From: an uncultured delta proteobacterium
Lineage (GTDB): Bacteria > Desulfobacterota > Desulfovibrionia > Desulfovibrionales > Desulfovibrionaceae
Assembly (NCBI GenBank): GCA_900079685.1
Contig: LT599018.1
Coordinates: 675,012-739,011 of the forward strand
Length of the DNA stretch: 64,000 bases
Direction: 5' to 3'
Numbering within the stretch: position 1 is the first letter of the stretch; every line of letters begins with the position of its first letter. Positions 4,761 through 50,749 of the stretch are shown here, piece after piece. The translations under genes were made by a program, and so were the position numbers. The notes under the pieces were generated by a model, which was not told the origin of the DNA, ran no database searches, and saw only the letters and a list, made by a program, of their open reading frames with translations.

Positions 4761-4810
4761 ACAACAAAAAGCCTTTGCGCCATCATGATGACGCGAAGGC
4801 TTTTTGTTGT
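4761..4810. terminator. Bidirectional terminator between convergent genes
   Basis: Fifteen-bp stem (4761-4775 with 4796-4810) containing A5 on one side and T5 on the other, so it can serve the coiled-coil gene on the plus strand and malic enzyme on the minus strand. Confidence 0.8.
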
Positions 4811-4827
4811 GGCGTAAGGAGCGGTAG

Positions 4828-6147
<1,320 letters not shown>

Positions 6148-28419: not shown

Positions 28420-28483
28420 CGGCAAGCGGCCCGGTTTGCTCCGGCACCGCGTCAGGTCCATCCCGCAAACGCATAATCCGATC

Positions 28484-34370: not shown

Positions 34371-34498
34371 CAGTCGCGGCTCAGTTTGCTCTGATACTGC
34401 GTCAGGCTCACCCCGTGCGAAGCTCATGTATGTCTTGATACACTTCGCTCCGCCCGGAGTTCGCCTTCCTTGTCTGAGGCCAAACTGAGCCACGACTG
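34371..34498 (-). ncRNA. Structured intergenic element, copy A (unrecognised RNA or repeat)
   Basis: An 18-base outer arm (34371-34388) pairs with 34481-34498. On the minus strand all 18 pairs form, one as G-U; on the plus strand that position is a C-A mismatch. Inside lies a 74-base core (34399-34472) that recurs at 49623-49695 with 68 identical positions. The core folds as GGC-GA-ACUCCG against CGGGGU-GA-GCC (tandem G-A pairs), topped by GCGAAG/CUUCGC and UGUAU/AUACA hairpins. It sits between thiC and the glycosyltransferase gene, both on the minus strand. No T-run follows, so it is not a plain terminator. Confidence 0.7.
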
Positions 34499-35800: not shown

Positions 35801-35896
35801 GCTGCATCCTTTTGGGGACGCGCGCACACAAGCAGGAATGCCCGGCTGTGGGGGAATCTTTCTGGGAGTGTTTCAATGATTCCGGCAATCAGCGGC

Positions 35897-35999
35897 AACT
35901 ATCCCTACGGCAGTATGAGCTGCGTCAGGTTCAAAGGGTCTGGGAGAAATTCCCACTCTCAGCCCGCTCCAGACAGTGTCTGGCGGACCCCCCTTAGTT
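35897..35999 (-). promoter_or_regulatory. TPP riboswitch (THI element) upstream of thiC
   Basis: On the minus strand: a P1 arm AACTA (35995-35999) that pairs with TAGTT (35897-35901), the pyrimidine-sensor CTGAGAG motif, and the pyrophosphate-sensor CCTTTGAACCTGA followed by a hairpin and CGTAGGGA. All are canonical TPP aptamer blocks. No clear terminator lies between it and thiC, so control is probably at translation. About 97 bases separate it from the ATG. Confidence 0.93.
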
Positions 36000-36010
36000 G
36001 GTACCGGATG

Positions 36011-49584: not shown

Positions 49585-49595
49585 GGGGTATCCAG

Positions 49596-49721
49596 GATTA
49601 ATGGTCTTTTTGCCCCCTGGCCGCGTCAGGCTCGCTCCGTGCGAAGCTCATGTATGTCCTGATACACTTCGCTTCGCCCGGACTCGCCTTCCTTGCCAGA
49701 AGACAAAAATCCTCATTAATC
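49596..49721 (-). ncRNA. Structured intergenic element, copy B (unrecognised RNA or repeat)
   Basis: Second copy of the element at 34371-34498; the core is 49623-49695. The enclosing arms differ wholly from copy A. GATTAATG (49596-49603) pairs with CATTAATC (49714-49721), and 49608-49621 pairs with 49695-49708. As minus-strand RNA the 14-bp inner arm is fully paired with three G-U wobbles; these would be A-C mismatches on the plus strand. Inside, a tandem G-A helix and GCGAAG/CUUCGC hairpin repeat copy A, with an A-U to G-C swap next to the G-A pairs. It lies between mreB and suhB, both minus strand. Confidence 0.7.
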
Positions 49722-49726
49722 ATTTT

Positions 49727-50749
49727 TTAGTTGATGTACACGCTGCCGTAGCGTTTCTTGTCGTCCAGGGTCCGCCCCGTCCCCCGCACCACGGTCGTCA
49801 GCGGGTCGTCATCGAGGGTGACTTTGAGGCCGGTATCCGCGGTAATCAGCGCATCAAGCCCCTTGAGCAACCCGCCGCCCCCGGCAAGCAGCATGCCGTT
49901 GCTGCCGATATCGGCGGCCAGTTCCGGCGGTGTTTTTTCCAACGCTTTGCGGATGGCCGTGACAATGGCGCGAACCGGCTCGGCCAGCGCTTCGCGGATA
50001 TGCCCGTCGGTGATGCGGACGCTTTGCGGGGTGCCGGTTACGAGGTTTTTGCCCGCAACCTCCGCCACGAGCTGTTCCTGCAAGGGATAGGCGGACCCGA
50101 CGGCCATTTTGATGCGTTCGGCCATGTTCTCGCCAATGAGCAACTGGAATTCGTCCTGAAAAAACCGCTGCACGGCCGTGTTCATGGCGTCTCCCGCCAT
50201 GCGGACGGATTCAGCATACGCGATGGCGGAAAGGGAAATGACAGCCACCTCCGTCGTGCCGCCGCCGATATCCACGACCATATTGCCGAGCGGCTCATGG
50301 ATGGGAAGCCCCGCGCCGATGGCCGCGGCCATGGGCTCCTCTATAAGATGGACGTTGTTGGAGCCCGCCTGCTGCGCGGATTCGATGACAGCGCGTTTTT
50401 CAACCTGCGTGATGCCGGTGGGAACACAGATGACAATATTGGGCCGGGCAATATTAAACCCGGAAATGACCTTTTTGATGAAGTACGCAATCATTTGCCG
50501 GGTTACTTCAAAGTCCGCGATAACCCCGTCGCGCATGGGCCTGACGGCCTGTATGCGTTTGGGGGTACGGCCGAGAAATTCCTTGGCCTCGCGCCCGACG
50601 GCAAGAACATGCCCCCGTTCCGCATCAAGCGCGACAACGGAAGGCTCGTTCAGCACAATGCCGTTATTTTTCGTGTAGAGCAAAGTGTTGGCGGTCCCCA
50701 AATCCATTGCCAGATCTTTGCCGAGAAAACTGAACAGGTTACGAAACAT
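49727..50749 (-). CDS. mreB: Rod shape-determining protein MreB
   Basis: 340-aa bacterial actin. Signatures: KDLAMDLGTANTLLY (phosphate 1), VVDIGGGTTEVAVISL (phosphate 2), GSNNVHLIEEPMAAAIGAGL and the adenosine loop LLAGGGGLLKGLD. It forms membrane-associated filaments guiding lateral cell-wall synthesis and indicates a rod-shaped or curved cell. The start at 50749 (MFRNLFSFLGKD) has GGGGA upstream. MreC/D and RodA are not adjacent in this window. Confidence 0.96.
   Translation of the reverse strand: MFRNLFSFLGKDLAMDLGTANTLLYTKNNGIVLNEPSVVALDAERGHVLAVGREAKEFLGRTPKRIQAVRPMRDGVIADFEVTRQMIAYFIKKVISGFNIARPNIVICVPTGITQVEKRAVIESAQQAGSNNVHLIEEPMAAAIGAGLPIHEPLGNMVVDIGGGTTEVAVISLSAIAYAESVRMAGDAMNTAVQRFFQDEFQLLIGENMAERIKMAVGSAYPLQEQLVAEVAGKNLVTGTPQSVRITDGHIREALAEPVRAIVTAIRKALEKTPPELAADIGSNGMLLAGGGGLLKGLDALITADTGLKVTLDDDPLTTVVRGTGRTLDDKKRYGSVYIN

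Follow-up and report, generated by a model that had tools for sequence, protein, structure and literature searches.

A large family of putative miniature transposons in Desulfobacterota with a conserved, strand-specific fold and differing ends

Bacterial non-autonomous miniature transposons (MITEs) such as Correia/NEMIS, ERIC, BOX/SPRITE, QMITE and Chunjie are, in the portion of a review that treats them, short, non-coding, intergenic and multicopy, with terminal inverted repeats, target duplications and predicted hairpin transcripts, and are moved in trans by insertion sequences (ISs); RNase III and RNase E act on Correia and ERIC transcripts (PMC10969869). The elements described here share this general build. 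As far as that portion of the review extends, they differ from the reviewed MITEs in that one strand-specific inner fold and its loops are kept under different terminal repeats, that target duplications come in two lengths, and that copies occur in many families of a phylum (PMC10969869). Chunjie, a MITE of Geobacter uraniireducens (178-235 bp), is alike in size range, copy number and intergenic position and, compared by its description in the review, may be a member of this family (PMC10969869). Abundant intergenic palindromes also characterize REPIN/RAYT systems, but the element is larger and has at least two end types and target duplications, and no intact RAYT gene was found in its own genome (compared with the part of PMC3733652 that describes these systems). 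The Tn3-derived mosaic elements termed TIMEs, likened here by their description in part of PMC4133298 only, are likewise miniature and form mosaics. Miniature transposons are usually regarded as products of deletion that have no content of their own; here it is the interior that evolution appears to have kept, on one strand and in many families of the phylum, while the ends were exchanged.

The window, a 64,000-nucleotide stretch of an uncultured delta proteobacterium genome, contains two copies of the element, A and B, with the following features:

34371..34498, minus strand: copy A, whole hairpin, with class-1 arms and without target duplication
34399..34472, minus strand: core of copy A, alpha type, conserved (BLAST alignment with copy B)
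34465..34472, minus strand: 5' half of the middle internal loop of copy A with flanking pairs, CAAGGAAG on the minus strand
34397..34405, minus strand: 3' half of the same loop with flanking pairs, CTGACGCAG on the minus strand
34473..34498, minus strand: 5' arm of copy A, class-1 terminal inverted repeat with a diverged tip (AGTCGTGGCTCA instead of GGTAGYGGCTCA)
34371..34398, minus strand: 3' arm of copy A
49596..49721, minus strand: copy B, whole hairpin, with class-2 arms
49623..49695, minus strand: core of copy B, conserved (BLAST alignment with copy A)
49585..49726, minus strand: mreB-suhB gap of 142 nt, containing copy B

BLAST aligned A and B at 88% over 86 columns, and a by-eye recount of the core gave 68 identities, 5 substitutions and 1 gap in 74 columns, the same figures as in an earlier, sequence-only reading of this DNA. 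That reading had also described arms that are unlike between the copies yet paired within each. Minus-strand folds agree, with 18 contiguous outer pairs in copy A and, in copy B, an outer run of 8 bp followed by a small internal loop and a 15-bp run; in the arms of B, the outermost part of the GGAAGCGCTGATTAATG repeat, present in fuller copies (L054, for example), is missing. On the minus strand, A folds with a z-score of -9.15 and B with one of -9.23, and none of 200 shuffles folded as well. As first stated, each copy lies between two minus-strand genes, A between a glycosyltransferase 2 gene and thiC, and B between the inositol monophosphatase gene suhB and mreB. Model R2 scored 98.4 bits for A (34378-34492) and 103 bits for B (49602-49715); these are the only two good matches in the window, a third (4795-4896) being weak (E 0.38). 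A stretch of 40 nt at 28426-28465 is 77.5% like an arm of A by BLAST and stands without the remaining element.

Beyond the window, BLAST with copy A gave 55 matches in the window's own 4.0-Mb genome, covariance model R1 gave 60 (E ≤ 1) and R2 gave 65 (E ≤ 1e-5; duplicates kept, reverse-strand echoes possible). An exact 26-base probe, in a search that leaves out the window's own and very near records, yielded ten stretches in three named assemblies (Desulfovibrio sp. OttesenSCG-928-A18, Desulfovibrio sp. Pc512_bin104 and Deltaproteobacteria bacterium Gx485_bin154). The covariance-model search of related genomes that had been proposed as a check found further copies, with R1 matches at E ≤ 0.01 in 22 of 59 genomes, the window's own included. 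G138, a single-contig genome of the same family as the window's genome, had 144 R2 matches at E ≤ 1e-5 with echoes kept. Across the Desulfovibrio-related genomes searched most closely, copy numbers ranged from about 10 to well over 100 per genome, and copies in the family are mostly about 115-200 bp long.

A strict loop pattern (CAAGGAAG-N45..75-CTGACGCAG) occurred in 62 of 297 genomes of the order, against five single hits of the reversed control (counted from the table), and in 50 of 395 genomes of the phylum (control, 4), a sample that shares 18 genomes of the order with the first. Eight genomes from five other families carried 9 to 54 hits each (G637, G485, G646, G492, G507, G526, G574 and G657). 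Since some single hits are chance coding sequence, these figures count pattern hits rather than confirmed elements. Diverged copies also escape the pattern, which hit G138 4 times, versus 144 model matches there.

Pairing within the element was assessed in two alignments. Alignment A1 comprises 24 copies with the alpha core (18 from the window's genome and six from two of the named assemblies) and contains 38 pairs, with 95.1% of cells paired and changes on both sides in 14 of the 38 (0 of 500 shuffles). Any long hairpin scores somewhat on R1, the reverse strand of one copy reaching 43 bits, and loop sequences were therefore used as well. Alignment A3 has 59 rows (56 distinct) of R1 hits from many genera, drawn from 57 of 80 sources, and replaced, through a stricter cut, alignment A2, whose 96 rows included reverse-strand echoes. 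In A3, 36 of 38 pairs changed on both sides (505 cells versus 129 in shuffles), and the covariation score was 0.640 versus 0.186 in shuffles. Sliding the partners left at most 51% of cells paired in A1 and at most 45% in A3. Compensatory changes, as expected of a structured RNA, are thus present in both alignments.

Constancy is greatest in the middle internal loop, CAAGGA opposite GACGCAG; from sequence and predicted folds, its inner part can be read as tandem G.A, with GA facing GA. The same arrangement can be read again close to the apex (GGGAGYGUAC / GUACUCGACC) and, for class 2, towards the outer end as well (GAGGAUUUUUG / CAAAAAGACC). Loop invariance in A3 is partly by construction, because 27 of its 59 rows were fetched by the exact loop pattern. 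Loci L084-L104 came by R1 alone, a model that itself contains the loop; among the 16 of these 21 loci that were aligned, both loop halves are exactly CAAGGAAG and CTGACGCAG in two, show few changes in ten, and take a variant AGGC / CAAC form in four (L088, L092, L096 and L103). A second loop lineage, CAAGGCGCGAGG.../...GAGCAACGCAGC or GAAGCAACGCAGC, has the same build and occurs in other genera (L405:587-698, L092 and L111).

The fold is specific to one strand. In all 24 own-genome copies the same strand folds better, by a mean of 17.3 kcal/mol with RNA and 7.3 kcal/mol with DNA parameters; the A1 consensus folds at -86.2 on this strand and -64.9 on the other. On the folding strand, A3 contains 126 G.U cells versus 23 A.C cells, a 5.5-fold excess. 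Because G.U and A.C would swap on the opposite strand, this excess, together with the uniform strand preference, points to selection on one strand, either as RNA or as single-stranded DNA. Taken with the double-sided changes, it makes selection on a fold well supported by the sequences, which upholds the initial argument that different sequences keeping the same pairing mark selection on structure.

Two rival accounts of this pairing have to be weighed. Template-switch correction is known for quasi-palindromes, and pairing could be kept by mutation alone if palindromes corrected themselves in this way while the core merely hitch-hiked. Arms that are unique to single copies yet paired would fit such a process, and it could mimic covariation in stems; it could not, however, mimic the loops, whose unpaired bases rank with the positions most conserved between genera, or the G.U excess, and the same strand folds better in all 24 copies. 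We therefore consider this account improbable. On the second account, the molecule that folds would be single-stranded DNA instead of RNA, for instance while the lagging strand is being replicated or the element excised. The strand asymmetry fits both equally well, since DNA energies favor the same strand in 24 of 24 copies. Orientation also follows chromosome position in G147, where the best 31 of 92 matches divide into 14 plus and 4 minus between 0.44 and 2.79 Mb and 0 plus and 13 minus elsewhere (0 of 200 permutations). This bias would fit a DNA-level role, but also gene strand or shared descent, the copies in G147 being possibly old or oriented by gene strand, and the same test in G138 gave no clear bias (14 of 200 permutations, with 58 listed of 144 matches). 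DDE transposons are not known to need a single-stranded DNA fold. On balance, a role as DNA is a serious contender but an unlikely one.

Evidence of mobility came from the flanks of the copies. In G138, 20 fetched loci contained 21 members of a single subfamily, and over 145 bp 15 of these have the same sequence. The 21 copies are flanked by TA/TA in 19 cases, GA/GA in one and CA/TA in one. Their ends, GGGTCTGTTAACACTAT and GGGCCTGTTAACGCTAT, match GGGCCTGTTAACACTA(A/T)TTG of an 828-bp IS in the window's genome and also GGACCTGTTAACACTAATTG / TGGCCTGTTAACACTATTTG of an IS in G138 itself. The 828-bp IS, which we take to belong to an IS5-like family, encodes a transposase matching Pfam DDE_Tnp_1; five copies compared were 99.9-100% identical, and the four shown sit at C-TA-G/A sites. 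It thus shares both the terminal repeat GGGCCTGTTAACACTA and the TA target with the G138 copies, and its end is also similar to GGGACTGTTCACACTA of L206; unlike the element, it has a transposase gene but no core, as L228-L231 and L200 contain no R2 match at E ≤ 1. An autonomous partner with matching ends is therefore present for GGGYCTGTTAACACTA ends; none was found in the own genome for the remaining class-2 ends, which are related but various and lie beside CTAG/CTAA and similar sequences, with CTAG on both sides of some copies (C1:2495635 and C2:526238). Compared by their ends, the insertion sequences L228-L231, L200 and L258 of G138, which come from two genera, are very similar.

Class-1 copies left a different trace. 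Exact 8-bp duplications (TCCGGCGG, CCTTATCA and CTGTTTTT) flank 3 of 24 copies, two of the 24 having been added by hand, versus 0 of 552 mismatched flank pairs; the other 21, A among them, have no exact 8-bp duplication. The copy at C1:2749848, which failed the end filter, has TTTTCCGG on both sides by eye. No target duplication was found at copies A and B themselves. Duplications of two lengths, 2 bp and 8 bp, imply transport of the same core by two or more kinds of transposase.

For copy B, an empty site is available. In G001, the only same-genus genome in the sample, the mreB-suhB gap measures 22 nt and lacks the copy, compared with 142 nt in the window's genome; mreB and suhB adjoin in many relatives, and none of the 11 relatives' gaps read contained a copy (R2 run on 27 loci). 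The sequence comparison thereby marks copy B as a lineage-specific insertion. The neighbor of thiC is not conserved, so copy A has no empty-site test.

The elements accordingly have the sequence features that define a MITE. They are short, lack a transposase gene and carry terminal inverted repeats; target site duplications accompany the G138 subfamily (2 bp) and class 1 (8 bp); and recent dispersal is evident from the 15 identical G138 copies and the empty gap in G001. The sequence-only reading had argued that the repeats are not MITEs, a view that these identical copies, both duplication lengths and the IS-matching ends overturn: the arms differ between copies because these carry terminal inverted repeats of different transposases.

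Two kinds of outer arm are common, class 1 (GGTAGYGGCTCAGTTTG..., as in A) and class 2 (...ATTAATGAGGATTTTTG... and relatives, as in B). Class-1 arms also surround other inner hairpins (L024, L028, L030-L035 and L042), and there are very short copies (L041, L194 and L203), which indicates that arms and cores have been combined freely. An initial motif scan allowing three mismatches was too noisy for use. The class-1 arm pattern, at three mismatches, gave 103+123 hits versus 136+144 in the reversed control and, since the control outscored it, only places with zero to two mismatches were taken as leads. Solo-arm places considered as candidates for an autonomous class-1 element (L038, L040 and L194-L207) turned out to hold short hairpins or single arms, or to be chance matches. 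A profile search of the window's genome, limited to PF01797 and PF01609, found no class-1 transposase.

The position of copies relative to genes, as called with a crude gene caller, bears on a further explanation, towards which the sequence-only reading leaned: that the element is a cis-acting structured RNA of mRNAs, such as a 3'-UTR element, terminator or stabilizer. Both A and B lie in sense behind a stop codon, at distances of 9 and 5 nt for the given ends and 15 and 11 nt for the model ends, and a strand-specific fold would suit this role. The shared sense orientation noted for A and B is thus correct for these two copies but does not hold across the family. At 55 places in the own genome, flanking genes were sense/sense in 16, antisense/antisense in 15, antisense/sense in 15 and sense/antisense in 5, with a further 2 within an open frame and 2 more at the end of a locus; the corresponding numbers for 63 copies in seven other genomes were 10, 23, 7 and 19, with 2 within an open frame and 2 incomplete. 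A cis RNA of mRNAs should be sense-biased, whereas tandem genes gave 16 sense versus 15 antisense and 10 versus 23, respectively, which argues against a 3'-UTR role. The same-genus genome, moreover, has no copy in the gap that B occupies, and neither A nor B has the T run of an intrinsic terminator, an identity that we rejected on this ground. We regard a cis-regulatory role as highly improbable. Among 22 places in the own genome with a convergent downstream gene, 14 have that gene's stop codon 8-15 nt past the model end, a spacing consistent with insertion into the stop codon's TA.

We also considered whether the element is one of the REP/REPIN-type palindromes that a RAYT (Y1) transposase mobilizes, because many intergenic palindromes per genome and class-1 arms that start with GGTAG recall such systems. 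Class-2 arms, however, lack GTAG, the 8-bp and 2-bp duplications point to DDE-type insertion, and the own genome has a single partial Y1 match (profile positions 80-121, in a 141-aa open frame), next to which BLAST found nothing element-like at E ≤ 0.01. Finding no intact Y1 gene in that genome, we rejected this identity; although a RAYT gene could be missing from a genome that is 95.4% complete, the REPIN explanation is barely credible. An IS200-like Y1 transposase fragment was seen at L053.

Searches for a described family agreed with the first impression that the element matches no named one: no Rfam family reached its gathering threshold at a copy. Rfam in the window returned the TPP riboswitch and two tRNAs only. 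For copy A, the only match at E ≤ 5 was CRISPR-DR29 (13.5 bits; threshold 39), and for 20 loci with a copy each, eight matches at E ≤ 0.5 all lay outside the copies, an FMN riboswitch alone being above threshold. Among the outcomes that had been named as fatal to a structured family, neither unpaired arms nor a terminator or REP match turned up: the arms of the copies read do pair, and Rfam gave no such match. Neither copy showed a promoter-like site, and the interior of neither yielded a terminator-like one; a terminator-like site at 49740-49754 (plus strand) lies outside copy B. Phage or plasmid cargo was rejected because BLAST at E ≤ 0.001, with A as the query for plasmids and B for phages, returned nothing. 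Viral contigs contained at least 120 loop-pattern stretches; among the 80 loci listed (L265-L344), five had a core at least 62% paired; none of the five was a long hairpin of this build, and we take them to be chance. The element's ends are presumably unlike integron attC sites. Similar deltaproteobacterial repeats end in ...CAGCAGCCTGCTAG; we recognized no paper on them, and no description of this element, in searches of open-licence PMC papers.

The finding itself is real and larger than first described: by sequence tests of mobility the element is a MITE, and what is new is what is conserved. Dispersed identical copies with target duplications, two end types, conserved pairing and internal loops, and strand asymmetry make it likely that A and B are members of an extensive family of non-autonomous MITEs with a conserved strand-specific fold and ends from different transposases. 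The outer arms would be terminal inverted repeats recognized by a transposase supplied in trans. Arms of one kind, like the ends of the 828-bp DDE IS, would enter TA and duplicate 2 bp, and those of the other kind (GGTAGYGGCTCA) would leave 8-bp duplications; over time, the element may swap ends to use whichever transposase is at hand.

A cut-and-paste transposase needs no inner hairpin, so a strand-specific fold with tandem G.A loops is probably kept for an RNA role. The element is probably transcribed, and its RNA would be bound or processed by a cell factor, aiding persistence or limiting cost. As a precedent, the part of the review on Correia and ERIC reports RNase action on their transcripts (PMC10969869), by analogy with which we propose that a protein binds or cuts the RNA. 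More tentatively, the family may be a phylum-wide RNA-centred parasite, in which a constant tandem-G.A RNA hairpin binding a cell factor has been carried by successive unrelated transposases through swapped terminal repeats; we put this forward as an idea that is somewhat less likely than not. A working RNA in such elements, a reader of the tandem G.A loops and the parasite's change of transposase can now be tested, and the model gives a ready annotation for many unlabelled intergenic hairpins in these genomes.

Further hairpins were seen near thiC in other genomes. Downstream of thiC, G011 has a weak R2 match (L390:1358-1462, 30 bits), and G009 (L391) has a hairpin of like build after the gene; these hairpins would stem either from more than one insertion at this gene end or from ancient copies that the genomes share. 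Upstream of thiC in the window, Rfam places the TPP riboswitch at 35885-36004 (minus strand, 66.3 bits), and the FMN riboswitch lies in G060 at L177:2329-2479 (minus strand, 110 bits).
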